A stretch of 50,746 nt of DNA, taken from Bacteroidales bacterium. GTDB taxonomy: Bacteria; Bacteroidota; Bacteroidia; Bacteroidales; Muribaculaceae. Both the position numbers and the translations under genes were made by a program. The notes under the pieces are model-generated. The model did no database searches, had not been told where the DNA came from, and was given only the letters and a program-made list of their open reading frames with translations. Position 1 is the first letter of the stretch. Each line of letters begins with the position of its first letter. Positions 17,396 through 34,979 of this stretch are shown in pieces. The stretch spans positions 1 to 50,746 of the forward strand of contig JAUNFY010000015.1 in the NCBI GenBank assembly GCA_030524805.1. Direction: 5' to 3'.

Positions 17396-17432
17396 AAAAA
17401 ATCAGGGTGCCTTCCCGAAGGAAAGCACCCTG
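17396..17432 (-). terminator. Strong intrinsic terminator of the nuo-atp operon
   Basis: On the minus strand a 13-bp stem (17420-17432 with 17403-17415, one G-U pair) closes an extra-stable TTCG tetraloop and is followed by six T. It lies 22 bp after the nuoN stop and marks the end of the large energy operon. Confidence 0.9.
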
Positions 17433-17454
17433 AGCGGTGTTATTTAGATTTGGG

Positions 17455-18936
17455 TTAGAGTCCGAGAAGGGCGAGCGGCTGCCAGCTTGAAAGCTCAACG
17501 GAGTTGACCAGCCATTCGTAGACGGGGCTTACGAGGCCGAAGAGCAGGATGCCGGCGATGCAGATGCCGAGACCTGTCTTGGCTACGCAGGTGCTCTTGA
17601 ACTCGCCGATGACGGGAGCTTCATTCGAAATCCACATTGCTTTCACCACGCAGAGATAATAGTAGAGGGAGATCACTGTGTTGATGAGGGCGATGAGCAC
17701 AAGCATGTAGAGGGCCATCGAGTTGGTGGCGGAAGTGACGCTTGTGAAGATGAGGATCTTGCTGAAGAAGCCTGCGAAAGGAGGAATACCTGCGAGCGAG
17801 AACATGGCAAGGGTCATTGCCACGCTGAGCCAGGGATTGGTCTTGTGGAGGCCGTTGTAGTCGTCCATGTTCAGTTTGCCGGTGTGGTCCTCGATGGTCT
17901 GGATCACTGCGAAGGCTCCGAGGTTGCTCACCACGTAGACGATGGTGTAGAACATCATCGAGGCAAGGCCGAGGGAGTTGGCGGCGATTACGCCGAGCAC
18001 GAGGTAGCCGGCCTGCGACACTGAGGAGAACGCCATGAATCGCTTCATGTTCTTCTGGCGCAGTGCGAAGAGGTTGCCGACAGTGATGGTGAGGATGATG
18101 AGTGCATAGAGCATCCATTCCCACGCACCGCTGTAGACCTGGCCGAAGCACTGGGTGAAGATGATGAAGAAAGCGAATGCGGCGCTGCCTTTCGACACTA
18201 CGGAGAGGTAGGAGGTGACGGGAGTGGGGGCGCCCTGATATACGTCGGCTGTCCAGAGGTGGAAGGGCACGAGCGAGAGCTTGAAGCCGATGCCGGCCAT
18301 GACAAACGCGAGCGCGAACATCAGGAGTCCGCTCATGGAGCCTTCGTTGATGGCCACCATGATGTCGGAGAAGTAAAGGCTGCCTACCGAGAAGGCATAG
18401 ACGAAGCTGAGGCCCATCATGAGGATGGCGGAGCTGAACACGGCTGTCAGAATATACTTGATGCCGGCCTCATGGCTTTCGTAGCGGTATTTGTCGAAGG
18501 CGATCATTGCCGCGATGGGCAGCGATGCCGATTCGATGCCGATTACGAAGAGCAGGAAGTGGCGTGCCGACACCATCAGGTACATGCCGAATAGTGTGGC
18601 GAGTAGAAGCTCGTAGTATTCGCCTTTTCTTGTTTCCATCTCGGCGTTGTCGGCCCATGCAAACGACTGCAGGATGACGAGGAACGCGCCGAGATTGAGG
18701 ATACACTTCATAGCCTTGGTGGCAGTGTCGTTGACATACATGCCTCCGAAGATTCCTTCAGGGCAGCTGGGGGCGATCCAGATCGCCACTGTGGCCAGAA
18801 GGAAGAGGATGGCAGTGGTAGGGGTCAGAATCTTCTTTACCCCATTTCCTCCGAAAGTATCCATGAAGAATACCACGAGGAAGATTCCCAATACAATCAG
18901 TTCGGGGAGCATTGCCCCAAATTGTGAATAGTCCAT
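17455..18936 (-). CDS. nuoN: NADH-quinone oxidoreductase subunit N
   Basis: Antiporter-like membrane subunit of complex I, 493 aa and strongly hydrophobic with about 14 helices. The family signature FHLWTADVYQGAPTPVTSYL sits mid-protein, followed by the lysine of helix 8 (SKGSAAF) in the proton half-channel. It is the last gene of the operon, 37 bp after nuoM, and ends 22 bp before the terminator. It belongs to the membrane arm with L and M. Confidence 0.95.
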   Translation of the reverse strand: MDYSQFGAMLPELIVLGIFLVVFFMDTFGGNGVKKILTPTTAILFLLATVAIWIAPSCPEGIFGGMYVNDTATKAMKCILNLGAFLVILQSFAWADNAEMETRKGEYYELLLATLFGMYLMVSARHFLLFVIGIESASLPIAAMIAFDKYRYESHEAGIKYILTAVFSSAILMMGLSFVYAFSVGSLYFSDIMVAINEGSMSGLLMFALAFVMAGIGFKLSLVPFHLWTADVYQGAPTPVTSYLSVVSKGSAAFAFFIIFTQCFGQVYSGAWEWMLYALIILTITVGNLFALRQKNMKRFMAFSSVSQAGYLVLGVIAANSLGLASMMFYTIVYVVSNLGAFAVIQTIEDHTGKLNMDDYNGLHKTNPWLSVAMTLAMFSLAGIPPFAGFFSKILIFTSVTSATNSMALYMLVLIALINTVISLYYYLCVVKAMWISNEAPVIGEFKSTCVAKTGLGICIAGILLFGLVSPVYEWLVNSVELSSWQPLALLGL

Positions 18937-18973
18937 TGTTTTGTGAGTTTAATTTTTTGAGGTAAAGTTCATA

Positions 18974-20488
18974 TTAGATCGCCGACTGGATTGCCGCGAT
19001 GATTGGAGTGAATGAGTGCTGGATTGTCTCGTTGATCCAGTTGGGGAAGCAGCCGATGCCTGCGATGCAGAGGATGAGGGTCACGGTGCTGAGGCGTTCA
19101 AACCATGTGGCGTCGGTGAGCTGCAGGTGATGTTCGTCCTGTACGGGGCCGAGCAGCAGCTTGCCTACCACGCGGAGGATGTAGACAGCGGTGATGACGA
19201 TGGAGCAGGTGGCAGCGATTACAAACACGCGGTGGAATGTGTCGGCCTCCTGGAACGAGCCGAAGAAGATGGTCATCTCAGCCACGAAGCCGGAGAGACC
19301 CGGCAGACCGAGCGATGCGAAACCGGCTATCATGTAGCAGACGCCGAGATAGGGCATTATCTTCATGAGGCCGCCCATCTGGCGGATGTCGCGGGTGTGG
19401 GTGCGGCCGTAGATCATACCGATGAGGGCGAAGAAGAGGGCTGTCATCAGGCCGTGGGAGAGCATCTGGAGGATAGCGCCGGTCATCGCTGTGGTGTTGA
19501 GCATGAGGATGGCGAAGAGCACCATGCCGCAGTGCGACACTGAGGAGTAGGCGTTGATGTATTTGAGGTCGGTCTGCACGCATGCCGAGAATGCACCGTA
19601 GACGATGGAGATGCCGGTGAGCACGATGAAGATCCATGCCAGCTCATTGGCAGCCTGCGGGAGCAGGAAGATGGCGATGCGGAAGCAGCCGTAGCCGCCG
19701 AGTTTCATGAGCACGCCGGCGTGGAGCATCGACACGGCGGTCGGTGCGCAGGCGTGGCCGTCGGGGCTCCAGGTGTGGAAGGGGAACATCGCGCCCAGCA
19801 CGCCGAAGCCCACGAAGGTGAGGCAGAAGAGCAGACGCTGCCAGCTCGGGTCGATGTTGGCGTTCTGCGAGATTTCGAGAATATTCCATGTGCAGCTCTG
19901 GAGGTCGGCGCCGGAGTGCCAGAAGATGCCGAGCAGGCCGAGCATCAGGAAGGCGGAGCCGCCCATGAGCATGAGGGTAAGCTTCATTGCGCTGTATTCC
20001 TTGCGTCCGGTGCCCCATACGCCGATGAGCAGATACATCGGGATGAGCGCCACCTCATAGAACATGAACATGGTGAACATGTCGATCGAGATGAAGAATC
20101 CGAACACGCCGGTGCTGAGCAGGCAGAACCAGAGGAAGAAGTTCTTGGGAAGCGGATTGATTTTCCATGAGGCGAAAGTGCCGGCAAATACAATCACGCA
20201 GCTGAGGAGGAGCATCAGGACGGAGATGCCGTCGACGCCCACTGCGAGGTGGATGTTGAGGGGGGCATACCAGAGCCAGCTGCCCAGATAGAGCATGTCG
20301 GCGTCGTTGCCGGCGGCACGCTGGCCGAGGAAGTCGACTACCAGCCAGATGCCGAGCACCATCAGGATGGTGCTTCCGATGGTCATTACCGTGCGGATGG
20401 CATTCATACTGCTGTTGCGGCAGAAGCCGAGTCCGGCCATCATGAGGACGGGGATGACCACAAACCAAATTAAGATATTTCCAAACAT
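18974..20488 (-). CDS. nuoM: NADH-quinone oxidoreductase subunit M
   Basis: Mrp/antiporter-like proton-pumping subunit, 504 aa. Key features are the conserved glutamate in helix 5 (FYEVALIPMYLLIGVWG), FPFHTWSPDGHACAPTAVSM and the helix-7 lysine in GVLMKLGGYG. It begins 29 bp after nuoL and ends 37 bp before nuoN. Length and order are those of other 11-subunit complex I operons. Confidence 0.96.
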   Translation of the reverse strand: MFGNILIWFVVIPVLMMAGLGFCRNSSMNAIRTVMTIGSTILMVLGIWLVVDFLGQRAAGNDADMLYLGSWLWYAPLNIHLAVGVDGISVLMLLLSCVIVFAGTFASWKINPLPKNFFLWFCLLSTGVFGFFISIDMFTMFMFYEVALIPMYLLIGVWGTGRKEYSAMKLTLMLMGGSAFLMLGLLGIFWHSGADLQSCTWNILEISQNANIDPSWQRLLFCLTFVGFGVLGAMFPFHTWSPDGHACAPTAVSMLHAGVLMKLGGYGCFRIAIFLLPQAANELAWIFIVLTGISIVYGAFSACVQTDLKYINAYSSVSHCGMVLFAILMLNTTAMTGAILQMLSHGLMTALFFALIGMIYGRTHTRDIRQMGGLMKIMPYLGVCYMIAGFASLGLPGLSGFVAEMTIFFGSFQEADTFHRVFVIAATCSIVITAVYILRVVGKLLLGPVQDEHHLQLTDATWFERLSTVTLILCIAGIGCFPNWINETIQHSFTPIIAAIQSAI

Positions 20489-20517
20489 TGTCTTATATTT
20501 TTAGCAATATGAATTCA

Positions 20518-22470
20518 TTATGAGAGTGCGAACCATACCACTGCTGCGAGAGCGATGGCTCCGAAGAAATACCATGCCACGTAGGCCTGGATGTGTCCGT
20601 TTTGCATTCCGCGTATCTGCCAGCTTGCCTTCTGGGTGACTTTTGCGAAGCCGTCCATGGTGGCGTCGATGACATGGCGGTCAAACCATGCGATGCTGCG
20701 GCAGATCATGCCGAAGATGATCTTGTGGGTGACGAACTGATACATCTCGTCCCAGTAGAATCTTCTGTGGGCTGCCTCCCAGAGAGTGGGGAGAGCGGCG
20801 CGCATGCGGGCAGGTTTGTCGTTCTTCTTCGCGTAGAGCCATGTGGCGAGCGCGATGGCGCATACTGCCACGATGATGCTGGGCAACCACACGCCGAGCT
20901 CAAGATGGATGTCGTAGGGCTTGCCGTCGTAGGTCACGTAGTGGCCGAAAGGTATGAAGCCGGCCACGCAGCTCACTGCCGCCAGGATGATGAGGGGCAG
21001 CGACATCTGCCAGGGTGCGTCGTGAGGCTTATGCTCCTTGTAGTGCGGGTTCTCTTCCCACCAGAAGATGAGATAGTAGAGGCGGAACATGTAGAAGGCT
21101 GTCAGGCCGGCCACCATTGTCATCCATGCGCCCCAGAAGAAGTCGTTCTGATACATGGCGGCGAGCATTTCGTCTTTCGAGAAGAAGCCTGAGAAGGGAT
21201 AGATGCCGGCGATTGCGAGGCAGCCGATGAGGAATGTCCAGTGGGTGATGGGCATGTACTTGCGCAGGCCACCCATCGAGGTGTAGTTGTTGGAGTGCAC
21301 GGTGTGGATCAGACATCCGGCGCCGAGGAAGAGGAGGGCCTTGAACATGGCGTGGGTGAAGAGATGGAACATCGAGGCCATGTAGCCGAGGCCGGGAGCA
21401 TGCCAGTGGTAGCCCTCGGGCACGTAGTCGCGGGCTACGGCGAGCGACACCATCATGAAGGCGATCTGCGAGATGGTGGAGAACGCGAGCACTCGCTTGA
21501 TGTCGATCTGGCAGCAAGCCACTACGGCTGCGTAGAAGGCTGTGATGGCGCCCACGACGCCTACGAAGTCCATCGAGGCGGGAACCTGGCAGTAGCACGG
21601 GAACATGCGGGCTACCAGATATACACCTGCCACGACCATGGTGGCGGCGTGGATGAGCGCCGAGACGGGAGTCGGGCCTTCCATTGCGTCGGGAAGCCAG
21701 ATGTGGAGAGGCATCATGGCCGATTTACCCATGCCGCCCATGAAGATGAGGATCATCGCCCATGTCATGACGGATGCGCCCATGAAGGTGGCACCGCCAC
21801 ACTGCTGCATGACGAGCTCAGGATTGCTTGTGAGGGTCTGGAAGTTGAACGTGTCGGTATAGAAAGTGAGGAGAAGGATACCGATGAGGAAGCCGAGGTC
21901 GGCGAAGCGGGTGACGATAAACGCCTTCTTCGATGCCGACACTGCCGAGGGAAGCTTATAGAAGAAGCCGATCAGCAGGTAGGAGCTTACGCCCACGAGC
22001 TCCCAGAAGATATACATCTGGAAAATGTTGGTGGCCACCACGAGTCCGAGCATCGAGAAGGAGAAGAGGTTGAGGAAAGCGTAGTAGCGCTGGAAACCTT
22101 TCTCTCCTTCCATGTAGCCCCATGAGTAGAGGTGCACCATGAATGAGATGGTGGTGATGACCACGAGCATCATGGCCGAGATCGGGTCGAGGAGGAAGCC
22201 GAGTTTCACCACGAGTTTGTCGGTGAAGGCAAGCCAGGTGTAGTCAAACACCTGGAACTGCAGGCGTTCGCCGAACTCGTTGATGAATTCAGGCGCTCCG
22301 CTGAAGAAATATGTGAATGCCACTATGTAGGCAAGCACCATTGTGGTACCCATGCCGAGGATACCCAGAATGCCGGCCATCTTTCGCGACATCACAACGC
22401 CTCCGATTCCCAAGATGAGGAACATCGCAATTGGGATCGCAAGGATTAAAATTGGAAGTGTCATGTCCAT
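20518..22470 (-). CDS. nuoL: NADH-quinone oxidoreductase subunit L
   Basis: Largest antiporter-like subunit of the complex I membrane arm, 650 aa. It shows FWELVGVSSYLLIGFFY in helix 5, LHIWLPDAMEGPTPVSALIH and the helix after it, and a long C-terminal extension (from about residue 500) that forms the lateral helix along the arm. Two near start codons (MDM) make the first residue uncertain by two. It follows nuoK by 12 bp. Confidence 0.96.
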   Translation of the reverse strand: MDMTLPILILAIPIAMFLILGIGGVVMSRKMAGILGILGMGTTMVLAYIVAFTYFFSGAPEFINEFGERLQFQVFDYTWLAFTDKLVVKLGFLLDPISAMMLVVITTISFMVHLYSWGYMEGEKGFQRYYAFLNLFSFSMLGLVVATNIFQMYIFWELVGVSSYLLIGFFYKLPSAVSASKKAFIVTRFADLGFLIGILLLTFYTDTFNFQTLTSNPELVMQQCGGATFMGASVMTWAMILIFMGGMGKSAMMPLHIWLPDAMEGPTPVSALIHAATMVVAGVYLVARMFPCYCQVPASMDFVGVVGAITAFYAAVVACCQIDIKRVLAFSTISQIAFMMVSLAVARDYVPEGYHWHAPGLGYMASMFHLFTHAMFKALLFLGAGCLIHTVHSNNYTSMGGLRKYMPITHWTFLIGCLAIAGIYPFSGFFSKDEMLAAMYQNDFFWGAWMTMVAGLTAFYMFRLYYLIFWWEENPHYKEHKPHDAPWQMSLPLIILAAVSCVAGFIPFGHYVTYDGKPYDIHLELGVWLPSIIVAVCAIALATWLYAKKNDKPARMRAALPTLWEAAHRRFYWDEMYQFVTHKIIFGMICRSIAWFDRHVIDATMDGFAKVTQKASWQIRGMQNGHIQAYVAWYFFGAIALAAVVWFALS

Positions 22471-22482
22471 ATCTTAGGAATT

Positions 22483-22794
22483 TTAGAATTTCAGTTGTTT
22501 GATGTCTGTGACGTTGGTGTTTCCTACCGCGCGGTAGATGTTGATGATGAGCGCGATGGCGATCGAGGTCTCCGCAGCCGCGATGGCTATTGCGAAGAGG
22601 GTGAACATCATTCCATCCATCGACCCGGGAAACAGGTAACGGTTGAAGATTACGAAGTTGAGATCGGCTGAGTTGAGCATGAGCTCGAGTGAAATCAGCA
22701 TTGCGATCATGTTTTTACGGGTCAGGAAGCCGTATACACCGAAAACGAACATCAGGACGCTCGGCACTAAATAGTATAGAATGCTTATATCCAT
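22483..22794 (-). CDS. nuoK: NADH-quinone oxidoreductase subunit K
   Basis: Small three-helix membrane subunit, 103 aa, the usual length. Glutamate in helix 2 (LISLELMLNSADLNF) and a second in helix 3 (AAAETSIAIALIINIYR) are the conserved charges of the central proton channel. It lies 20 bp after nuoJ. Confidence 0.95.
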   Translation of the reverse strand: MDISILYYLVPSVLMFVFGVYGFLTRKNMIAMLISLELMLNSADLNFVIFNRYLFPGSMDGMMFTLFAIAIAAAETSIAIALIINIYRAVGNTNVTDIKQLKF

Positions 22795-22814
22795 AATATA
22801 ATTCTTTCCGGGGG

Positions 22815-23345
22815 TTATTTCTTTCGGGCTATCACCACTCCGCCGATGATGCAGGCGAGCAGAAGCACGCTGACTGCCTCGAAGGGGAGAAGATACTGAT
22901 ACTTTTCGCTGCCAACGAGGGCGGTGCCAATGCGGTGCATGTCGATGGCAGGTCCGCCGGCGCTGATGGCCTCAGCCAGCGACACGTTGCCGGGGAGCGG
23001 CATGGTGAAGAGCGCTGCCAGAAGCAGGATAGCTCCGCACACGGAGGCCGACACGCCGATCAGCTGCCTGTGGGCGGCGAGAGGGGCGGCCTTGTCGTTG
23101 GGTTTGTGGGTGAGGATGATCGCAAACACAATCAGCACCATGATGCCTCCGGCATAAACTGCTATCTGGACCGCTCCGAGAAACTCGAATCCGAGTTGGA
23201 AATAGATGATGGCGGTGCTCAGAAGAGTGAACAGCAAGTATGTTGCCGCGCGGAGGATTTTGGTCGTGGTGACAGCCATCCAGGCGAATACAACCATTGA
23301 GATTGCTACCACGAAGTAGAGTATGATGTTTCCTACTGAATCCAT
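22815..23345 (-). CDS. nuoJ: NADH-quinone oxidoreductase subunit J
   Basis: Five-helix membrane subunit, 176 aa. The conserved helix-3 segment with the pi-bulge is seen as FLGAVQIAVYAGGIMVLIVF, with the family's Tyr. It starts 25 bp after nuoI and completes the quinone-proximal membrane module with H, A and K. Confidence 0.95.
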   Translation of the reverse strand: MDSVGNIILYFVVAISMVVFAWMAVTTTKILRAATYLLFTLLSTAIIYFQLGFEFLGAVQIAVYAGGIMVLIVFAIILTHKPNDKAAPLAAHRQLIGVSASVCGAILLLAALFTMPLPGNVSLAEAISAGGPAIDMHRIGTALVGSEKYQYLLPFEAVSVLLLACIIGGVVIARKK

Positions 23346-23370
23346 TTGTTATTGTTGTTGTTGAATTGTA

Positions 23371-24000
23371 TTATTTGTCAGTTGCTGTAGGCTCCGCGGC
23401 GTTGCCGTTGGCGGCGGCCTCTTTCTCAGCCTTTAGTTTGGCAGCTTTGGCAAGGGCTTCAGCCTTTATCTTGGCCAACTGTTCGGGGTCGATCGCGGGT
23501 TTCGGTTTCGGCGCGTTAGCCTTCGCGATGATCTCCTCATCCGTAGGCTCCGGACGATAGTTAAGCTGCTCCACGAGTTTGCCGCGGGTGAACACCGCCT
23601 GTTCGAAATCGTTGGAGAATTCAAGTGCGTCCTGCGGGCAGGAGGTGACACACAGCATGCAGAAGGTGCAGCTGCCAAGATCGTAGAGATACTTCTCGAG
23701 CACTTTTTTCTTCTTGCCGTCGGGAAGTTCCACCATACGGGTCTTGAGTGTGATGGTGCCGTTGGGGCAGTTCATCTGGCAGATGCCGCATGCGATGCAC
23801 TTGTGGTGTCCTTGCTCGTCATACTTCAGTGTAAGTTCCGCACGGAAGCGGTCGGCGATCTTCAGTGTGGTGTGGCGGTTTTCGGGATATTGCTCCGTGA
23901 TCTTGGGAGTCACCAACTCCTTTCCGGTCACGGCCATACCCTTCGCCAGACTGGAAATGCCTTTGCCTACCGACGAAAAATATTCCTTGATACTACTCAT
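23371..24000 (-). CDS. nuoI: NADH-quinone oxidoreductase subunit I (2x[4Fe-4S])
   Basis: Peripheral ferredoxin-like subunit carrying clusters N6a and N6b. Cluster ligands are C68, C71, C74, C78 (CIACGICQMNCP) and C111, C114, C117, C121 (CTFCMLCVTSCP). At 209 aa it is longer than the E. coli protein (180) because of an Ala/Lys/Pro-rich C-terminal tail (about 150-209). It is the first nuo gene after the embedded atp cluster, 89 bp after atpG; no promoter consensus is visible in that gap, so it probably relies on read-through. Confidence 0.95.
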   Translation of the reverse strand: MSSIKEYFSSVGKGISSLAKGMAVTGKELVTPKITEQYPENRHTTLKIADRFRAELTLKYDEQGHHKCIACGICQMNCPNGTITLKTRMVELPDGKKKKVLEKYLYDLGSCTFCMLCVTSCPQDALEFSNDFEQAVFTRGKLVEQLNYRPEPTDEEIIAKANAPKPKPAIDPEQLAKIKAEALAKAAKLKAEKEAAANGNAAEPTATDK

Positions 24001-24089
24001 ATAATGGTTTGTTTTGTTTATTTATTCCGTGTTGTTATTGTGTTCTGTATGTTTCAATCTGTCGGGTCGCTGACCTCATGCGCCGCGGC

Positions 24090-24983
24090 CTACCGCTCCA
24101 CCTGACCTCCGAGGATGTCGAGCAGCTCGGTGGTGATGCTTTCCTGGCGCAGCTTGTTGTAGTCGAGGTTGAGCTCTTCCAGCAGTTTCTTCGCGTTGTC
24201 GTTGGCGCTCTGCATGGCCATCACGCGGGCAGCCTGCTCCGAGGCGCGGTTCTGGATGGTGATCTCCTGCATGGTGCTGAGCACAAACATCGGCAACACC
24301 GCGTTGAAGATGCTGTTGGCGTCGGGCTCGAAGATGTAGAGCTTGTTGGCTTCCGAGGCGTCGAAGTCGTCGCCGCGGAGGTTTTCCATCGAGAGGGGGA
24401 AGAGCTGCTCGAAGGCCGGACGCTGGCGGCTCATGGAGAAATACTTCATGTAGCCCACCGACACGAGGTCGTAGGTGTGGTCGGAAAACTTGCGGCGGAG
24501 GCTGTGGGTGAGCTCGTTGACTTTCTCAGGGTCCATCTTGGAGTCCACTCCGTCGACGTGTACCACCTTCATGCCGGCACCCGCTGCTTTGGCCCAGGCC
24601 TTCTCCATCTTTTTGCCTACGGGATAGATATCGAAATGCACATTGGCCCCGTACTGGTCCTGAAGTTTCCTTATCTCCTCATGTATGGCCTTGAAGATAT
24701 TGATGTTGTAGGCTCCGCAAAGGCCGTCGTCGCTGCCGAAGACCACTACAGCGATATTCGCTACATCCTTGCGGGCGTCGGTCAGCGGGCTGCTGAATTC
24801 GGTGCCTGACGAAAGGATGTGGCCCATGATATACTTTATCTGCTGACGGTATGGCACGAGCTGCTTGAGCGAGGATTCGAACTTGTGTACCTTTGCCGAT
24901 GAAATCATCTTCATGGCGCCGGTGATCTTCTCACTCGAAGCTACAGAGCCGATACGTGTCTTTAGTTCCCTTAGGGTTGCCAT
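24090..24983 (-). CDS. atpG: F1 ATP synthase gamma subunit
   Basis: Central rotor stalk of F1, 297 aa. The N-terminal coiled-coil helix (LRELKTRIGSVASSEKITGAMKMISSAK region, residues 4-31) and the C-terminal helix (RASEQAARVMAMQSANDNAK, then KLLEELNLDYNKLRQ) form the rotor shaft; GSDDGLCGAYNINIF is the family's Rossmann-like middle. It is the last atp gene, 73 bp after atpA, with a conserved hairpin in that gap (25007-25036). Confidence 0.95.
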   Translation of the reverse strand: MATLRELKTRIGSVASSEKITGAMKMISSAKVHKFESSLKQLVPYRQQIKYIMGHILSSGTEFSSPLTDARKDVANIAVVVFGSDDGLCGAYNINIFKAIHEEIRKLQDQYGANVHFDIYPVGKKMEKAWAKAAGAGMKVVHVDGVDSKMDPEKVNELTHSLRRKFSDHTYDLVSVGYMKYFSMSRQRPAFEQLFPLSMENLRGDDFDASEANKLYIFEPDANSIFNAVLPMFVLSTMQEITIQNRASEQAARVMAMQSANDNAKKLLEELNLDYNKLRQESITTELLDILGGQVER

Positions 24984-25006
24984 TTCTTAATTCGTTTGTT
25001 GTTGGT

Positions 25007-25036
25007 AGCATGCGTCGGTTTCACTCGGCGCATGCT
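25007..25036 (-). promoter_or_regulatory. Intercistronic hairpin before atpG (copy B)
   Basis: Inverted repeat of 12 bp around a 6-nt loop: AGCATGCGTCGG (25007-25018), TTTCAC, TCGGCGCATGCT (25025-25036). On the mRNA the loop is GUGAAA. The same 12-6-12 design and loop occurs before atpD (31089-31118) with a different but still pairing outer stem. Possible roles are segmental mRNA stability or translation control; unproven. Confidence 0.7.
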
Positions 25037-25056
25037 TTTGAGTATGTGTAAAAGGC

Positions 25057-26634
25057 TTACTGTTTGTATCTTGAGCTGATCTCAGCCGCGCATTCGCGTA
25101 TCTTGGCCTGAACGTCGTCGGAGAGGTTGCCGTTCTTGATCTCGTCGAGCACTTCCTTGCGGTATTTTGCCTCCACAAGCTGGATGAAGAGCGTCTCAAA
25201 CTCGTGCACCTTCTCGAGGGGAACGTTTTCGAGCAGACCGTTCACTCCGCAGTAGATCACCGCCACCTGGTTTTCGACAGGCCAGGGCTTGTATTGCGGC
25301 TGGATGAGGAGCTGCTGGTTCTTGCGTCCCTTGTCGATCACTTTCGCGGTCACCGGGTCGATGTCGCCGCCAAACTTGGTGAACGATTCGAGCTCGCGAT
25401 ACTGAGCCTGGTCGATCTTGAGCGTACCGGCCACTTTCTTCATGGGCTTGATCTGCGCGTTGCCGCCTACACGCGACACGGAGATACCCACGTTGACGGC
25501 GGGCCTGATGCCCTGGTTGAAGAGGGCGGTCTCGAGGAAGATCTGGCCGTCGGTGATCGAGATCACGTTGGTCGGGATGTAGGCCGACACGTCGCCTGCC
25601 TGTGTCTCGATGATGGGAAGGGCAGTGAGCGAGCCGCCGCCTTTCACTATCGGTTTGAGCACTTCGGGGAGGTCGTTCATAGTGGCTGCCACCTGCTGGT
25701 TGTCGATGATCTTCGCAGCGCGTTCGAGAAGGCGGGAGTGGAGATAGAAGATATCGCCGGGATAAGCCTCGCGGCCCGAGGGGCGCTTGAGGATGAGCGA
25801 TATCTCACGGTATGCCACAGCCTGCTTCGAGAGGTCGTCGTAGACGATGAGCGCGTCGCGGCCGGTGTCGCGGATATATTCGCCGATGGCCACACCCGCG
25901 AAAGGAGCGTAGTAGCGCATGGCGGCGGAGTCGGATGCTGTCGCAGCCACCACCGTGGTGTATTCCATCGCGCCATACTTCTTGAGCGTGTTGACGATCG
26001 AAGCGATCGTAGACGCTTTCTGACCGATTGCCACGTAGATGCAGTATACCGGTTTTCCGTCGAGGAAATTCTGGCGCTGGTTGATGATGGTGTCGATAGC
26101 GATGGCGGTCTTGCCAATCTGGCGGTCGCCGATGATGAGCTCGCGCTGTCCGCGGCCGATAGGAATCATCGAGTCGATAGCCTTGAGGCCTGTCTGCAGA
26201 GGCTGCTTCACGGGCTGGCGGAAGATGACGCCGGGAGCTTTTCTTTCGAGTGGCATTCGAAGCAACTCACCCTCGATCGGGCCGTTGCCATCGATCGGTT
26301 CGCCAAGAATATTTATAACGCGACCGAAGAGACCTTCGCCGACAGGGATAGATGCAATCTCACCCGTGCGACGGACCGTCATGTCTTCTGAAATTGAATT
26401 GATATCGTCGAGAAGCACAACACCCACGTTGCTCTCCTCAAGATTGAGCGCTACGCCCGTTGAGCCGTTTTCAAACTCCACGAGTTCGCTGGCCTTCACG
26501 TTGTCGAGACCATAGACATGAGCCACGCCGTCGCCGACGCTGAGGACAGTGCCTACTTCCTCAAACTTGACCTGAGAACTTACGTTTTCAAGTTGCTGCT
26601 TAAGAATATCTGATATTTCGCTTGGGTTAAGCAT
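25057..26634 (-). CDS. atpA: F1 ATP synthase alpha subunit
   Basis: Non-catalytic nucleotide-binding subunit of the F1 hexamer, 525 aa. The P-loop is GDRQIGKT (169-176); the usual Thr is Ile at the fifth position, which keeps the GxxxxGKT frame. [20 protein letters not shown] and [20 protein letters not shown] are the alpha signatures, each within the middle domain. It starts 2 bp after the atpH stop, so translation is probably coupled. Confidence 0.97.
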
Positions 26635-26636
26635 TG

Positions 26637-27182
26637 TTAATTGCTTCTTAAAAGGTTTAAACGTAATTGTTCGATCTCATTGCTGATCGAAGCGTCAAGA
26701 CGCTGGCCGTCGACATCGATCACGAACCCGCCGATGAGTTCGGGATCGACCGAGCAACTGAATTCGAGCTTGAGATTGGGAAACGCGTCGGCCACCAGGC
26801 TGCGGAGTTTCGCCATCTGGTCGTCGGCGAGCTGCACTGCCGTGATGATCCTCGCTATCGCCATGTCGTTCTCCTTGCGGTAGAGCTTGCAATAGGCGAG
26901 GGCCATGAGGCGGGCATACTCGCAACGTTTCCTGTCGAGAATAAGATCTACGAACGAACGATAGTCGGCTTCCACATTGTCGCCGGCTGCCGTGATAAGC
27001 AGTTTCGCCTTGTCCTCGCGTTTCACGAACGGATTGGAGAGCACTTTCTGAAGGCCAGGATTCTCTACGAAAGATTCAGCCAGGGTCTTCATCTCTTCAT
27101 ACACAACTCCGGAGTTGTGTCGTTCCTCCGCCAGTTTGTAAAGCGCTTTGGCATAGCGCTGCGGTATCAGTCCTTCGCTCAT
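26637..27182 (-). CDS. atpH: ATP synthase delta subunit
   Basis: Peripheral stalk subunit joining b to the top of F1; 181 aa, usual length. N-terminal [12 protein letters not shown] and C-terminal [20 protein letters not shown] are the two OSCP signatures. It starts 4 bp after atpF and ends 2 bp before atpA, inside a tightly packed segment. Confidence 0.93.
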
Positions 27183-27186
27183 TGTC

Positions 27187-27681
27187 TCAGTTTTTCTCTA
27201 TTTCGTCCAACATCTTATTGACAAGTTGCTTCTGAGCGTCATCGTTCTTGAGCTGGTTGCGTACCATCTTTTCTGCGATGTCGATAGAGAACTTGCTGAC
27301 TTCATTTCTGAACTGGAGTTCTGCTTCCTTGCGCGACTGCTCGATAGATATCTTCGCAGCTTCCATCACCTTGCGGGCCTCTTCGGATGCCTCTTTTTTG
27401 GCAGCCTCGATTATCTGGCTCTTCATTTGGTCGGCCTGGCGCAATATTTCAGCCTGTTGGGCCTGAGCTTCTCCTATCACTTTCTGGGCTGACTCGCGGG
27501 CGTGGTCAAGTTGCTCCTTGGCCTCGCGGGCGTATTCCACTCCCTTGTCGATAGCATCAGCACGCCCTTCCATCTGCTTGATTATCGCAGGCCATCCCCA
27601 CTTCGCCAGGATGAGGAAGAGAAGGATGAATGCGATAAACATCCAGAATACCAGTCCAAGATCGGGCGTGAATAATTCCAT
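27187..27681 (-). CDS. atpF: ATP synthase b subunit
   Basis: Peripheral stalk, 164 aa: one N-terminal membrane helix (LGLVFWMFIAFILLFLILAKWGW, residues 8-30) followed by a long charged helix with a heptad-like pattern (residues 35-160). A single b gene is present, so the stalk would be a homodimer. It follows atpE by 31 bp. Confidence 0.94.
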   Translation of the reverse strand: MELFTPDLGLVFWMFIAFILLFLILAKWGWPAIIKQMEGRADAIDKGVEYAREAKEQLDHARESAQKVIGEAQAQQAEILRQADQMKSQIIEAAKKEASEEARKVMEAAKISIEQSRKEAELQFRNEVSKFSIDIAEKMVRNQLKNDDAQKQLVNKMLDEIEKN

Positions 27682-27712
27682 TTGCTAAGAATTTAGTTGT
27701 GACCGATGCAAA

Positions 27713-27958
27713 TCAGATGAAGAGTGCCAGAGCAGATACAATCACTGCGAAGAGTGCCACACCTTCGATAAGCGCTGCAATCACGATCATGTTGCTTCGG
27801 ATGTCGCCGGCGCTTTCCGGCTGGCGTGCGATCGCTTCCATTGCGCTTGCACCGATTTTACCGATACCGATACCTGCTCCGATTGCGGAAAGTCCTGCTC
27901 CGAGTGCTGCACCAAAAGCGCTGAGGCCTGCTGCTGCTGTCAAAATCATTGAAAACAT
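27713..27958 (-). CDS. atpE: ATP synthase c subunit (rotor ring)
   Basis: 81 aa helical hairpin of the c-ring, with the RQPE loop at 45-48 and the ion-binding carboxylate E65 in the second helix (ALIEGVALF). The residues that make a Na+ site in Ilyobacter/Propionigenium-type rings (Gln in helix 1, Ser/Thr right after the Glu) are Ile and Gly here, which argues for proton coupling. That is inference from motif comparison. Confidence 0.95.
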   Translation of the reverse strand: MFSMILTAAAGLSAFGAALGAGLSAIGAGIGIGKIGASAMEAIARQPESAGDIRSNMIVIAALIEGVALFAVIVSALALFI

Positions 27959-28022
27959 AATGTTAAATATTTTAGTGTTATAGTTTTAATTTTTATTTCT
28001 CTTTTTATATCCTGATGGCTGC

Positions 28023-29279
28023 TCATGCCACGTCTTCCTCCGCCTTGTGCTCCGCCTTGTGGTGCTCCTCAACGGCCATCGAGATGAAGATGGTAGAGAG
28101 CAGCGTGAACACGTAGGCCTGGATGAAGCTCACCAGCACGTCGAGCGCGAGCATGAAGATCGAGAAGATGAGCGACACGAAGGTCGATGCTCCTGCCGCT
28201 GCCGCGCCGAAGGCCGCGAAGATGAAGATGAGCAGGGTGAGGGTGATCACTATCATGTGGCCGCCCATCATGTTGGCGAAAAGACGCACGCAGAGTGCGG
28301 CGGGCTTGGTGAACATGCCGAAGATCTCGATCACCTGCATGATGGGAAGCGGACACTTGAGCCAGATGGGCACATCGGGCCAGAAGATTTCCTTCCAGTA
28401 GTGCTTGTTGCCGTTGACGTTGGTGATCACGAATGTCATCACTGCCATCACCAGCGTGATCGCGATGTTGCCCGTCAGGTTGGCGCCGCCGGGGAATATT
28501 ACTATCAGGCCCAGGAGGTTCATCGTGAGGATGAAGAAGAAGGCCGTCAGCAGATAGGGGGCGTAGCGCGGGGCCTTATCGCCGAGTGTGCTCTTGATCA
28601 CTCCAGAATAGATGAAATCCACACACAGCTCGAGGAATCCCATGCCCTTGCGCGGTGCCTTGAAACCCTTGCGGGTGTAGAACCTCACGAGGCTCATCAC
28701 CATCAGGGTGACGAGGGCGGCCGCTATGAAAAGCGCCAGCACGTTTTTAGTGATCGAGATGTCGAAGCATCTGTATTCGCGCCAGAACTTGCCGTCTATG
28801 TTGGTGTAGCCGTGAGCCACGTAGTGATTGAGGTCGGTGTCGGCGGCATTTTCCGCAGCTTCCGATTCAAGCTCAGCCTGCAGGGAGTCGGCGATGGGGA
28901 AAAGTTCCACCACCTTTCCTTCGTGCTCGCTGACGTGGGGAGTGTAGAAACGATAGGTCTTGCCATCTTTCTCCACTTCATATATGATGGCTTCGGCCTC
29001 TTTCTTTGTCTTGCCGTCGGCCGCGGTCACTTCCTTTACCTCCGACAGACGTGAGGAACTGAAGCAAAACCATTTGCCGTCTTCTGCCCTCACTATCACC
29101 GGAAGGGGGATGCGGTAGGTATGGCTGAAGGGTACTTCCCAGCCATATCCGTCGCCGAGGTGATGGAAGATCGTCTCCTTCACGTCGACACTCCCTTCAT
29201 CCTTGCCGGCCGCACTCATGGAGAACGGGGCGACGAGGATTGCCAGCAGCAGGAGCAATAAGGCTATTTTCTTGTTCAT
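28023..29279 (-). CDS. atpB: ATP synthase a subunit with long N-terminal periplasmic domain
   Basis: Membrane stator channel of Fo, 418 aa, far longer than the E. coli protein (271). A signal-like segment (KKIALLLLLLAILVAPFSM) and a polar domain of about 150 residues precede the first channel helix near 176-198; this extension is common in Bacteroidetes. The essential arginine is R332 (ALCVRLFANMMGGHM). An upstream ATG at 29300 would overlap atpC; I prefer 29279 because the signal peptide begins there, 8 bp after the atpC stop. Confidence 0.93.
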   Translation of the reverse strand: MNKKIALLLLLLAILVAPFSMSAAGKDEGSVDVKETIFHHLGDGYGWEVPFSHTYRIPLPVIVRAEDGKWFCFSSSRLSEVKEVTAADGKTKKEAEAIIYEVEKDGKTYRFYTPHVSEHEGKVVELFPIADSLQAELESEAAENAADTDLNHYVAHGYTNIDGKFWREYRCFDISITKNVLALFIAAALVTLMVMSLVRFYTRKGFKAPRKGMGFLELCVDFIYSGVIKSTLGDKAPRYAPYLLTAFFFILTMNLLGLIVIFPGGANLTGNIAITLVMAVMTFVITNVNGNKHYWKEIFWPDVPIWLKCPLPIMQVIEIFGMFTKPAALCVRLFANMMGGHMIVITLTLLIFIFAAFGAAAAGASTFVSLIFSIFMLALDVLVSFIQAYVFTLLSTIFISMAVEEHHKAEHKAEEDVA

Positions 29280-29287
29280 GGCAGTTG

Positions 29288-29530
29288 TCAATAAATGCAT
29301 ACCGAGATGACGTTGTTGTCTACATCCGCAATCCCGCCCTTGATGGCAAACGATTTCTCCTCGCCGGAAGGTATGCGGTATGCTATTATTCCCTCGTTGA
29401 GCACCGAGATGAGCGGAGCATGGTTTTTCAGCACGGTGAAGGAGCCGAGCTGCCCCGGCATCGTCACCGATTCCACCTCGCCCTTGAATGCGATTTCCTG
29501 AGGGGATATTATTTCTAAAGTCATTGTCAC
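29288..29530 (-). CDS. atpC: ATP synthase epsilon subunit, N-terminal domain only
   Basis: 80 aa beta-sandwich (LEIISPQEIAFKGEVESVTM, PGQLGSFTVLKNHAPLIS). The C-terminal helical hairpin found in the 130-140 aa epsilon of E. coli, which inhibits ATP hydrolysis, is absent. Short epsilon is usual for Bacteroidetes. It follows atpD by 12 bp. Confidence 0.92.
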   Translation of the reverse strand: MTMTLEIISPQEIAFKGEVESVTMPGQLGSFTVLKNHAPLISVLNEGIIAYRIPSGEEKSFAIKGGIADVDNNVISVCIY

Positions 29531-29542
29531 AGCGTGGTATTG

Positions 29543-31118
<1,576 letters not shown>

Positions 31119-31137
31119 TATGTCGGTGGGGTAGGGG

Positions 31138-32226
31138 TCAGAATGTCCAGCCGAGAGCCACGCACACTGCCATCAGCACGAGGTTGGCGAGTGCGAAAGG
31201 CATCATGTATTTCCATTCGAAGGCGAGCAGCTGGTCGATGCGGACACGCGGGAAGGTCCATTTGAACCAGATGATGATGTAGCTGATGAAGAATGCCTTC
31301 AGCAGGAACCAGATGATGCTCGGGATCCAGTCCATCACAGCGTTGAAGCCGTCCCATCCGGGGATGTGGATAGGCATCCAGCCGCCGAGGAACATCAGGG
31401 CTGCCACGCCGCTGACGATGAAGAGGTTGAGGTATTCCGAAAGGTAGAACATACCGAAGCTGATGCCCGAATACTCGGTGTGGAAGCCTGCGGTGAGCTC
31501 ATGTTCAGCCTCCGGAAGGTCGAAGGGGCCTCGGTTGGTCTCCGCTGTCGCTGCGATGATGTAGAGCAGGAAAGCGATGATGGCCGGGATATGACCCTGG
31601 AGGATAAACCAGCAGTTCTGCTGCTGAAGTACGAGTTCGTTGATGTTCATCGTTCCGGCGAGCACCACGATTGCCATGATGGCGAGACCCATCGAGATCT
31701 CGTAGCTCACCATCTGGGCGCCGCTTCGCATCGCGCCTACGAGTGAATACTTATTGTTGGAAGCCCAGCCTGCGAGCAGGATGCCGAGCACTCCAAGGCT
31801 CGAGACGGCGAGGATGAAGAAGATGCCGATGTTGTAGTTGATCATCTGCATGCCGTAGCCCCAGGGAAGGCAGGCGAACATCACCACCGATGATGCCACC
31901 ACGATGTAGGGAGCCAGCTTGAAAAGGAACTTGTCGGTGCCTTTGAGTGAGATGATCTCCTTGATGAGCATCTTGATGACGTCGGCGAAAAGCTGCAGCA
32001 AGCCCCAGGGGCCCACACGCATCGGGCCGAGACGGCACTGGAAATATGCGCAGAGTTTACGTTCGTAGAAGATATAGAACATAGCCAATACGGAGTAGGC
32101 GGCCAGCAGAACCACACCGATCACGATGCACTCCACCAGTATCGCGGCCCATTCCGGCATACATCCTGTCAGGAGGTTGTTGAACCAGTTGGTGACTACG
32201 CTGAAGTCAAACATGTTGTATTTCAT
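31138..32226 (-). CDS. nuoH: NADH-quinone oxidoreductase subunit H
   Basis: Eight-helix membrane subunit forming much of the quinone chamber, 362 aa. Signatures are RLGPMRVGPWGLLQLFADV, the charged loop ETNRGPFDLPEAEHELTAGF and FKWTFPRVRIDQLLAFEWKY near the C-terminus. It lies 19 bp after nuoCD. In most nuo operons nuoI follows directly; here the eight atp genes intervene. NuoG, usual upstream neighbour of H, is absent. Confidence 0.96.
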   Translation of the reverse strand: MKYNMFDFSVVTNWFNNLLTGCMPEWAAILVECIVIGVVLLAAYSVLAMFYIFYERKLCAYFQCRLGPMRVGPWGLLQLFADVIKMLIKEIISLKGTDKFLFKLAPYIVVASSVVMFACLPWGYGMQMINYNIGIFFILAVSSLGVLGILLAGWASNNKYSLVGAMRSGAQMVSYEISMGLAIMAIVVLAGTMNINELVLQQQNCWFILQGHIPAIIAFLLYIIAATAETNRGPFDLPEAEHELTAGFHTEYSGISFGMFYLSEYLNLFIVSGVAALMFLGGWMPIHIPGWDGFNAVMDWIPSIIWFLLKAFFISYIIIWFKWTFPRVRIDQLLAFEWKYMMPFALANLVLMAVCVALGWTF

Positions 32227-32245
32227 GTTGTATCTGTTGTTTTAG

Positions 32246-33871
32246 TTAGCGGTCTATGTCGGGAATCACGAAGTCGAGAGCGGCTCCGATAGTGATCACG
32301 TCGGCAATCATGTGTCCCTTGCAAGTGAGATCCATCACGCCAACAAGATTGAAGCAGGGGCTCTGGAAATGCACGCGGTAGGGATTCTTCGAGCCGTCGC
32401 TTTCGATGTAAACGCCGAAAGTGCCGCGCGATGCCTCCACCTGGGTGTACCAATGTCCTGCGGGCAGCTTCACCACCTTGGGCACCTGTGCGCGGATGTC
32501 GCCTTCCGGAATGTTGTCGATGAGCTGGGCTATGATCTTGCAGCTCTGCTCTATCTCGCGCATCCTCACCATGTAGCGTGCGTAGGAGTCGCAGCCTTCT
32601 TCGAGCACTTCCTCGAATTCCACGCGGTCGTAGGCAGCGTAGGGGTGCTTCTTGCGGCAGTCGTTGCTCCAGCCCGATCCGCGGCCCGAGGGGCCTGTGA
32701 TGGCGTAGTTGATGGCTTCTTCCTTGGTCATCTTGCCAACGTGCAGACGGTTTTTGGCGATGATGTTGCCCGAGAAGACGGTGTGGTATTCCTTCAGCGC
32801 CTTAGGCATCACCTCGAGGAATTCCTTCACGTCTTTCACGAAGTCGGGGTGGAGATCGGCGATGACACCGCCTATCACGTTATAGTTCATCGACATACGC
32901 GCGCCGCAGGTCTTCTCGAAGATGTTGAGCACCATCTCGCGCTCGCGGAATCCATAGAAGAAGGCTGTTGTGGCGCCAAGGTCCATGGCCGTACATCCGA
33001 ATGCGAGCAGATGGCTCGAGATGCGCATGAGCTCGTCCATGATGGTGCGGATCACTACTGCGCGGTCGGGCACCTGAAGGCCGAGCGCTTTCTCGATGCA
33101 GGCGCAGAGGCAGTGGCGGTTCTGGTGGGCGCTCATGTAGTCCATGCGGTCGGTGAAGTGCAGCAGCTGCGGGTATCCGAGTCCTTCGCAAAGCTTCTCG
33201 ATGCCGCGGTGGATATAGCCCGACACGACGTCGATCTTCTTCACTTCCTCGCCGTTGAGGGCAACGCGGAAACGCATCACGCCGTGGGTCGACGGGTGCT
33301 GCGGGCCGATGTTCATCACATAGTCGTGCTCTTCAAACACCTTCGAGGGGATAGCCTTGATCAGGCCCTCGGCGTCTTCCACATACGACATTGTGTTGTC
33401 TTCATTCTTCTCGTCGCTCTCGGGGATGGGATTGAGTTTCGGGTCAGCATCATAGTCCTTGCGCAGGGGGAAGCCCTTCCAGTCGTTGCGGAGGAAGAAG
33501 CGGCGCATGTCGGGGTGGCCGATAAACTTGATGCCGAAGAAGTCGTAGACCTCGCGTTCCTGGAAGTTAGCTACCTTCCAGAGGTCGGAAACTGTATGGA
33601 TATAAGGATTCTCGCGGTCGGCCACTGCTACTTTTACAGTGAGCATCTCCCAGTTGCGGGAAGTGCAGGTGAAGTAGTAAACCACCCCGAGCGAATCTTT
33701 CCAGTCCATTCCGACCACTGCCGAGAGCACGTCGTAGTTCAGGTCGGGATTGCTCTTGAGTGCTTCCGCGAGACGTCGCCAGTCGCCGGCGGGCACATTA
33801 GCCAGAAGGATTTCTCCCTCCTCGAATGTGGCAGACGGGCATATCTTGCTGATAATGTCTTTAACGCTCAT
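32246..33871 (-). CDS. nuoCD: NADH-quinone oxidoreductase fused subunits C/D
   Basis: 541 aa fusion. The N-terminal C part (about 1-150) ends in the 30-kDa signature ANFQEREVYDFFGIKFIGHP and RNDWKGFPLRKDYD. The D part (about 180-541) has GPQHPSTHGVMRFRVAL, SGYIHRGIEKLCE and DRMDYMSAHQN, the quinone-site His and Tyr region. The fusion is also found in E. coli and is common in Bacteroidetes. It follows nuoB by 32 bp. Subunits E, F and G, which would carry the NADH site, are not encoded here. Confidence 0.96.
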   Translation of the reverse strand: MSVKDIISKICPSATFEEGEILLANVPAGDWRRLAEALKSNPDLNYDVLSAVVGMDWKDSLGVVYYFTCTSRNWEMLTVKVAVADRENPYIHTVSDLWKVANFQEREVYDFFGIKFIGHPDMRRFFLRNDWKGFPLRKDYDADPKLNPIPESDEKNEDNTMSYVEDAEGLIKAIPSKVFEEHDYVMNIGPQHPSTHGVMRFRVALNGEEVKKIDVVSGYIHRGIEKLCEGLGYPQLLHFTDRMDYMSAHQNRHCLCACIEKALGLQVPDRAVVIRTIMDELMRISSHLLAFGCTAMDLGATTAFFYGFREREMVLNIFEKTCGARMSMNYNVIGGVIADLHPDFVKDVKEFLEVMPKALKEYHTVFSGNIIAKNRLHVGKMTKEEAINYAITGPSGRGSGWSNDCRKKHPYAAYDRVEFEEVLEEGCDSYARYMVRMREIEQSCKIIAQLIDNIPEGDIRAQVPKVVKLPAGHWYTQVEASRGTFGVYIESDGSKNPYRVHFQSPCFNLVGVMDLTCKGHMIADVITIGAALDFVIPDIDR

Positions 33872-33903
33872 TATATTTGTTGTGTATTGTTGACAAATAT
33901 TGA

Positions 33904-34512
33904 TTAATACTCGCCTGCATCTTCGGGATGCTTGCGGAAGAAATCTTTGATCTTTTCATGACGGTTGACGCCGCCGAAGAATTTCTGCACCTTGATCTTG
34001 CGCTGCAGCTGCATGAGGCCGTAGAACATCGCCTCGGGACGCGGGGGGCATCCGGGGATGAACACGTCGACGGGGATGATCTTGTCCACGCCGTCGACCA
34101 CGCAGTATGAGTTCTTGAACGGGCCACCGCTGACGGCGCAACCGCCGCACGCGATCACGTATTTGGGCTCGGCAAGCTGCTCATAGAGGCGCACGAGGGC
34201 CGGCGCCATCTTATGCACGATAGTGCCCTGCACCATGATGTAGTCGGCCTGACGGGGCGAGTTGCGGGCAACCTCGAATCCGAAGCGTGCCATGTCGTAG
34301 CGCGCTGCTCCGAGACACATGAATTCGATGGCGCAGCAGCTGGTGCCGAAGCAGAGAGGCCACAGAGAGTTGGATATACCCCAGTTGATGAGCTGGTCGA
34401 GTTTGCCGACGGCGACATTGGCGCCCGTGGCGTTGAGTTCTTCTACGAGTTGGTCGATGTATTCGTTGTCCTTGAAGTCCTCGGTCTTCATCGACTTGAT
34501 TTTCACTGCCAT
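33904..34512 (-). CDS. nuoB: NADH-quinone oxidoreductase subunit B
   Basis: Carries cluster N2, the last cluster before quinone; 202 aa. Ligands are the tandem C59-C60 (FGTSCCAIEF), C125 (IACGGCAVSGG) and C155 (FIPGCPPRPEA). The frame is open to 34533, but I start at 34512, where ATGGCAGTGA overlaps the nuoA stop by 10 nt, a typical coupling arrangement; the seven extra residues of the longer form look unconserved. Confidence 0.94.
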   Translation of the reverse strand: MAVKIKSMKTEDFKDNEYIDQLVEELNATGANVAVGKLDQLINWGISNSLWPLCFGTSCCAIEFMCLGAARYDMARFGFEVARNSPRQADYIMVQGTIVHKMAPALVRLYEQLAEPKYVIACGGCAVSGGPFKNSYCVVDGVDKIIPVDVFIPGCPPRPEAMFYGLMQLQRKIKVQKFFGGVNRHEKIKDFFRKHPEDAGEY

Positions 34513-34874
34513 TTGAGAGCTCCTTTCCGCCAAGCGTAAGCAAGGCCTAAAATTAGAATAAACATGAAGATGGCGATGCAGAGAAGGCCGTCAGGTCCCA
34601 GGCTGCGCATGATGGTGGCCCAGGGGTAGAGGAAGATGGTCTCGACATCGAAAATCAGAAACAGGATGGCGAAGATGTAGTAGCCGGTTTTGAACTGAAT
34701 CATTGATTCGCCACGGGTCGGGATACCGCATTCGTAGGTTTCGCCTTTCTTTACCGAGTAGGATTTAGGGCCGATCAGTCGCGCGATCCAATAGGCGGCA
34801 AACACCAGGGCCATGCCGGTGAGAGCCGCTGTTATCGCGAGATCTCCGTTGCTTATTTCCAACAGTAAATTCAT
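34503..34874 (-). CDS. nuoA: NADH-quinone oxidoreductase subunit A
   Basis: Small three-helix membrane subunit, 123 aa, with the conserved loop YECGIPTRGESMIQFKTGYY between helices 1 and 2 and FLIFDVETIFLYPW in helix 2. It heads the 18-gene operon, about 70 nt after a consensus promoter, and overlaps nuoB by 10 nt. Confidence 0.95.
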   Translation of the reverse strand: MNLLLEISNGDLAITAALTGMALVFAAYWIARLIGPKSYSVKKGETYECGIPTRGESMIQFKTGYYIFAILFLIFDVETIFLYPWATIMRSLGPDGLLCIAIFMFILILGLAYAWRKGALKWQ

Positions 34875-34948
34875 ATATTCTTTTAAGTTTTAGTTGTTTA
34901 TTCAGATGTTAAGGTCGCATCGCGGGCATCATACACACAATGCGACTG

Positions 34949-34979
34949 CAAAAATACAAAAAAAAACTTAAACGAGCAA
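34949..34979 (-). promoter_or_regulatory. Promoter of the nuo-atp operon
   Basis: On the minus strand TTG (34977-34979), exactly 20 bp, then TATTTTTG (34949-34956), a perfect TAnnTTTG. The -33 region sits in an inverted repeat, AACGAG at 34971-34976 with CTCGTT at 34986-34991. The transcript leader would be about 70 nt. Confidence 0.85.

Follow-up and report, generated by a model that had tools for sequence, protein, structure and literature searches.

Complex I and ATP synthase are usually under separate regulation. Of the bacteria compared below, the family first known as S24-7 or 'Ca. Homeothermaceae' has been renamed Muribaculaceae, and Desulfitobacterium belongs to a different phylum. 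In S24-7, an F-type ATP synthase is integrated in the complex I locus, 11 of the 14 Nuo subunits are present with NuoE, NuoF and NuoG missing, and NQR occurs in 27 of 30 genomes (Ormerod et al. 2016, PMC4936053). Bacteroides fragilis has an 11-subunit Nuo without NuoEFG as well, which contributes nothing to NADH:quinone activity and is poorly expressed from its nuo genes in rich medium (PMC7002350), and Desulfitobacterium hafniense possesses an 11-subunit complex I-like enzyme with ferredoxin as the proposed donor (PMC11238625). At the level of RNA, intercistronic hairpins, such as those of papBA, are known to give segments within one mRNA unequal stability (PMC5927463). Within the open-access literature searched, PMC4936053 alone was found to describe the nesting of the atp genes in a nuo locus.

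The stretch of DNA analysed in this study, referred to as the window (50,746 nt of contig JAUNFY010000015.1, from a Bacteroidales draft genome with the GTDB lineage Muribaculaceae, of 2.91 Mb in 128 contigs and 95.5% complete), carries a single 18-gene block in the order nuoABCDH-atpDCBEFHAG-nuoIJKLMN on the minus strand (17455-34874). Its eight atp genes and ten nuo genes, the latter including a nuoCD fusion, are all open frames, and in a profile search each matched its NCBIfam subunit model, nuoA, nuoI and nuoJ with scores under the curated cut-offs. The block begins with nuoA (34503-34874), which overlaps nuoB (33904-34533) by 31 nt, followed by the nuoCD fusion (32246-33871) and nuoH (31138-32226). 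A spacer of 95 nt separates the end of nuoH at 31138 from the start of atpD at 31042, from where the atp genes run through atpD (F1 beta, 29543-31042), atpC (short epsilon, 29288-29530), atpB (subunit a, 28023-29300), atpE (subunit c, 27713-27958), atpF (subunit b, 27187-27681), atpH (delta, 26637-27182) and atpA (alpha, 25057-26634) to atpG (gamma, 24090-24983). After 89 nt, between the end of atpG at 24090 and the start of nuoI at 24000, the nuo genes resume with nuoI (23371-24000), nuoJ (22815-23345), nuoK (22483-22794), nuoL (20518-22470), nuoM (18974-20488) and nuoN (17455-18936). A first-pass annotation of this DNA had placed all eight atp genes between nuoH and nuoI on the same strand, and both this arrangement and the junction positions it gave are borne out by the open frames and the NCBIfam matches. 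It had also named an earlier description of the layout as general for the family among the findings that would count against it. Such a description exists: Ormerod et al. (PMC4936053) already report the layout for the family, so that the nesting as such is not new, and it extends to six more families. Directly upstream of the block, on the same strand, lies a gene for an AAA_14/DUF4143 ATPase (35070-36245), with the nuoA promoter in between.

The epsilon subunit encoded in the block is short. AtpC of the window has 80 residues (77-82 across the 83 nested loci containing atpC, and 77-90 in seven stand-alone atp operons) and matches the beta-sandwich domain alone, so that the C-terminal inhibitory helices are probably absent. 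The spacer between atpC and atpB has a median of 11 nt in nested operons. Five of the seven stand-alone operons (L135, L137, L139, L141 and L142) possess an open frame of 90-136 residues at this position, which fills a gap of about 440 nt and appears hydrophobic by eye; the one from L135, the only one scanned, yielded nothing over cut-off in Pfam.

A NuoH search of named genomes retained 80 of 99 relatives. In 43 of these 80 loci atpD comes after nuoH, in 36 nuoI follows directly, and one (L053) has neither gene there. NuoH of the nested loci is 66-90% identical to that of the window, compared to 58-66% for the non-nested loci, among whose record titles are Bacteroides, Tannerella, Alistipes, Odoribacter, Dysgonamonadaceae and Hoylesella. 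Of the NuoH loci nearest to the window, two, at 89-90% identity, are titled Muribaculaceae and Muribaculum; others carry other names. Within the window's own family (f1), a combined NuoH and AtpD query matched 193 of 197 genomes, at least 40 of the matched ones with a single match spanning nuoH into atpD. The other four (G054, G134, G193 and G203) yielded no NuoH, no AtpD and no V-type A subunit, reflecting either en-bloc loss or a contig absent from the assembly; en-bloc loss has been reported for genome H5 in PMC4936053. Reading the DNA of one genome from each of 29 other f1 genera, we found atpD after nuoH in all 29 and nuoI after atpG in 28, the remaining stretch (L097) stopping earlier. 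Both junctions were also present in all 12 genomes of six further families (f18, f24, f54, f61, f80 and f99), so that nuoH-atpD occurs in 41 of 41 stretches from genomes picked as likely nested. In other, non-nested families, nuoH adjoins nuoI in nine of nine nuo loci, and AtpD is encoded on a different contig or far off in at least 30 of 31 non-nested genomes with NuoH. The synteny comparison over Bacteroidales that the first-pass annotation had called for reveals an arrangement that is wider than one family, and older, spanning seven families of Bacteroidales that form a single clade.

Altogether, 85 nested loci, 84 of them distinct, share the nuoH-atpD junction; 78 have both junctions, 38 display the full 18-gene order, and none deviates from it. 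The median spacers are 47 nt for nuoH-atpD and 64 nt for atpG-nuoI, and junction DNA gave no match to phage records. The loci that are incomplete run into the end of a contig or stretch, except for L101, where nuoI is followed by 100 N of scaffold gap and the remaining stretch yielded no nuoJ-N. This gap, right behind the nuoI match, and the draft state of the window's own genome (128 contigs) could be taken as signs that an assembly or binning error fused two operons. Yet a match running from nuoH into atpD is also present in the one-contig genome G168, and the same junction in 84 distinct sequences argues against such an error, the probability of which we regard as negligible; a junction common to 85 loci is due neither to chance nor to misassembly.

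FastTree trees were built from NuoB+NuoCD+NuoH (67 tips) and from AtpD (51 tips). In both, all 42 nested genomes fall into one clade, with support values of 0.989 and 0.93, respectively, and no non-nested genome intrudes. Because their outgroup topology is partly odd, we used the trees solely for this point. The recovery of one clade in both points to a single old relocation followed by vertical inheritance. We also considered, and rejected, the possibility that a foreign atp operon had come in as a second one: the atpD of the block is the sole hit that the window's genome gives above the AtpD cut-off, and both trees place the nested genomes in one clade.

Promoters of Bacteroidota have the consensus TTG, about 20 nt, TANNTTTG. 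Measured against this consensus, the window contains one promoter ahead of the block (34949-34979, minus strand), with TTG at 34979-34977, a spacer of 20 nt and TATTTTTG at 34956-34949, 82 nt upstream of the nuoA ATG. Across the nested loci, TANNTTTG lies within 300 nt upstream of nuoA in 64 of 79 cases (16.7 in shuffled sequences) and upstream of stand-alone atpD in eight of nine (shuffled, 2.2), but in the shorter stretches of about 135-156 nt scanned at the internal junctions it occurs at background, in 5 of 85 at nuoH-atpD (shuffled, 5.0) and 4 of 78 at atpG-nuoI (shuffled, 3.6). Non-nested nuoA, a weaker control, has it in 18 of 42 loci (shuffled, 7.4). With lengths adjusted, the motif is found in 7 of 84 distinct loci when 300 nt before nested atpD are considered, and in 41 of 78 when the stretch before nuoA is restricted to 135 nt. 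We also derived a weight matrix from 55 nuoA sites; with a threshold of 8 bits and leave-one-out scoring of the nuoA regions, it gave a comparable picture, with hits for nuoA in 40 of 79, for stand-alone atpD in 3 of 9, for nested atpD in 3 of 85 and for nested nuoI in 1 of 78. A scan for sigma-70 promoters of the E. coli type was uninformative (15 sites, 10.0 in shuffled sequences) and was superseded by the Bacteroidota consensus, the single promoter class covered here.

The three exceptions at nested atpD are L114, from one f99 genome, and L122 and L123 from family f80. In both f80 genomes a promoter-like TANNTTTG lies 51 nt upstream of atpD, judging by sequence possibly an internal promoter that was kept or regained. 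Together with the seven loci that have the motif within 300 nt of atpD, and with promoter classes beyond the scanned one that may act there, these candidates could be invoked for a different scenario, in which the atp genes are still served by their own promoter, located inside nuoH or in the spacer and belonging to a class missed by the scan, and their nesting is a matter of position only. However, stand-alone atpD of the same order uses the scanned class (8 of 9), whereas nested loci are at background, and we therefore consider such a hidden promoter unlikely. By the same evidence, the ancestral promoter of atpD has probably been lost, and it appears to be gone from the nested sequences.

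At the other end of the block, an intrinsic terminator-like hairpin with a stem and T-run follows nuoN on the minus strand (17402-17433); its stem is the longest in a scan that was overall at chance (15 sites, 14.7 in shuffles). Among the relatives, terminator-like sites were detected in none of 85 nuoH-atpD spacers, in 3 of 78 atpG-nuoI spacers and within 120 nt after nuoN in 21 of 34 loci; none was seen after atpG in six stand-alone operons, indicating that the test misses some. The three sites between atpG and nuoI (in L023, L114 and L124) combine a hairpin with a T-run and could attenuate nuoI-N. Strong hairpins in this spacer (two shuffle runs put 18 and 17 of 73 at z below -2) could also reduce nuoI-N levels.

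By sequence consensus, the block in the window has a promoter at its 5' end, a terminator-like site at its 3' end and neither inside, in line with the first-pass annotation, which had bounded the block by these two elements and had seen no consensus promoter at the two junctions. Since the motif is common upstream of nuoA and of stand-alone atpD and does not exceed background at the internal junctions, the block is best read as one transcription unit. The further proposal that expression of nuo and atp is tied holds in part. A shared promoter is supported by the sequences, which makes tied expression plausible at the promoter level; equal levels are not implied, since with spacer hairpins, terminator-like sites in 3 of 78 and promoter-like sites in 3 of 85 loci, nuo and atp levels may differ and are probably adjusted along the mRNA.

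The complex I encoded here comprises NuoA-D and NuoH-N, that is, 11 of the 14 Nuo subunits. NuoE and NuoG are absent from the block, and NuoF is absent from both the block and the genome, with no match to its domain PF01512 in the 95.5% complete draft, which agrees with the first reading of the sequence, where NuoEFG had been noted as missing. Elsewhere PF01512, also the domain of RnfC, was detected in 11 of 31 f1 genomes tested; the remaining nested families have it in 10 of 12 genomes, and the non-nested ones in 15 of 18. Lack of NuoEFG is ordinary in this context, as it is reported for S24-7 (PMC4936053) and B. fragilis (PMC7002350). NqrA and PFOR were found in the window's genome, and PFOR in 41 of 42 nested genomes, and by analogy the donor is likely to be ferredoxin reduced by pyruvate:ferredoxin oxidoreductase, as we infer. 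Many nested-clade genomes have further ion pumps in the form of NQR and RnfC-like genes, NQR being found in most. A V-type A subunit was detected at E 1e-100 in none of 46 nested-clade genomes, a set that includes the window's own genome and the four f1 genomes without detected NuoH or AtpD, compared to 14 of 40 non-nested genomes; because nesting arose once, this absence represents one coincidence, not a correlation. The most economical reading, which draws on analogy with the enzyme of D. hafniense (PMC11238625), is a ferredoxin-fed complex I beside the only rotary ATPase found.

The single origin also means that the conservation of the layout counts as one event and not as repeated selection. 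Combined with the occurrence of NQR in most genomes of the clade, this leaves some room for a neutral rearrangement, without any regulatory effect that mattered, which was kept by inertia. Such a history would have to accommodate a gene order without a single deviation among the 85 nested loci, which come from seven families, and a sole detected rotary ATPase that now sits downstream of the nuo promoter. Both are weak points against it, and we judge neutrality rather improbable, though somewhat less so than a hidden atp promoter.

A typical nested nuoH-atpD spacer has no hairpin (median z 0.20). That of the window folds as a strong one (H1, 31082-31119, minus strand; z -5.7), with UGA in the loop and GGACCAA as its 3' flank. 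In nine distinct H1 sequences, including the window, 8 of 11 pairs are changed on both sides with 92.9% of cells paired, and the covariation score was reached by none of 500 shuffles. A model derived from H1 led to a second copy of the same architecture, H2, between atpA and atpG (25000-25037, minus strand), the most hairpin-rich spacer of nested loci (z below -2.5 in 19 of 38 spacers of at least 30 nt). H2 is present in all five H1-bearing loci whose atpA-atpG spacer was examined (the window, L002, L004, L005 and L081). When H1 and H2 are combined into 14 sequences, cut by hand in register and also the source of the hairpin models, 10 of 11 pairs are changed on both sides, a value reached by 11 of 500 shuffles, and the covariation score is again reached by none of 500. 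The UGA is invariant over all 14, and one near-loop pair is mismatched in 10 of them.

Rfam 15 at gathering thresholds gave no match for H1 or H2 in the window. A search of 565,399 bases of the genome (the window and a sample of 514,653 bases from 40 contigs, the sample amounting to about 18% of the genome) yielded no further copy below E 0.02, and a dispersed repeat was rejected on this ground; a weak third match (L199, E 0.021) falls within a reading frame and has no UGA in its loop. H1 as an intrinsic terminator was rejected too, as the T-run is absent downstream. Nor is H1 genus-wide: among 23 additional junctions of the same genus, it is carried by L147, L163 and L164 alone, the latter two being identical in sequence to L081 and L005. 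Within the genus, the hairpins are restricted to the window's closest relatives, and among the other loci searched no match to H1 or H2 was obtained in other genera up to E 1.

Considering these sequences and analogous systems, the hairpins are likely to give segments of the mRNA unequal stability or translation. Our tentative suggestion, which we put somewhat short of even, is that H1 and H2 constitute a new operon-specific cis-acting RNA element that brackets atpDCBEFHA and provides processing, stability or protein-binding sites, so that a single transcript yields complex I, most of ATP synthase and the gamma subunit in different amounts. If this is true, the pair would be this lineage's own solution to a stoichiometry problem that arose when two operons were fused. 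In any case it is a new lead, and a compact case in which to study how subunits are made in unequal numbers from one mRNA.

The nesting is real, conserved and of single origin, and co-expression is supported by sequence. With good confidence, we favour a single, very long energy-conversion operon that arose by one insertion of the atp genes into the nuoH-nuoI joint, with the nuoA promoter setting both complexes and hairpins tuning the balance in the window's relatives. A promoterless eight-gene atp operon would have entered the joint of an 11-subunit nuo operon once, in an ancestor of the seven Bacteroidales families, and the nested block would have been inherited vertically ever since. Its transcript, as the sequence evidence suggests, would run from upstream of nuoA to past nuoN, and with transcription starting and ending at these points, one promoter would set the expression of both complex I and ATP synthase. 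The 11-subunit complex I without the NADH module would pump H+ and feed menaquinone, and F1Fo ATP synthase would use the H+ gradient of complex I. In the window's close relatives, two related hairpins would probably tune the balance between segments post-transcriptionally. A large clade of gut bacteria would thereby hold complex I and its only rotary ATPase found apparently behind one promoter, and co-transcription of ATP synthase with a complex I that lacks the NADH module offers a simple test of this enzyme's purpose.

Compared to known systems, the window's complex I resembles the Nuo of B. fragilis in its subunit set and the absence of NuoEFG (PMC7002350), but the Bacteroides loci that we examined, such as L063 of B. 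ihuae, have nuoH adjoining nuoI, and unlike the nuo genes of B. fragilis, which are reported to be weakly expressed in rich medium, those in the window would be on whenever ATP synthase is. It is also like the D. hafniense enzyme in lacking the NADH module (PMC11238625), although the relevant portion of that paper is silent on atp genes in its operon. Segmental decay as in papBA was studied in E. coli transcripts (PMC5927463), whereas H1 and H2 are known from sequence and covariation only. The closest match is the S24-7 locus, with which the window shares the atp genes within the nuo locus, the 11 Nuo subunits and the lack of NuoEFG (PMC4936053). Beyond that description, as far as the part of it considered here extends, we provide the junction positions, the promoter analysis, six further families and the hairpins; the extension to seven families is, as far as we found, an addition to the open-access literature.
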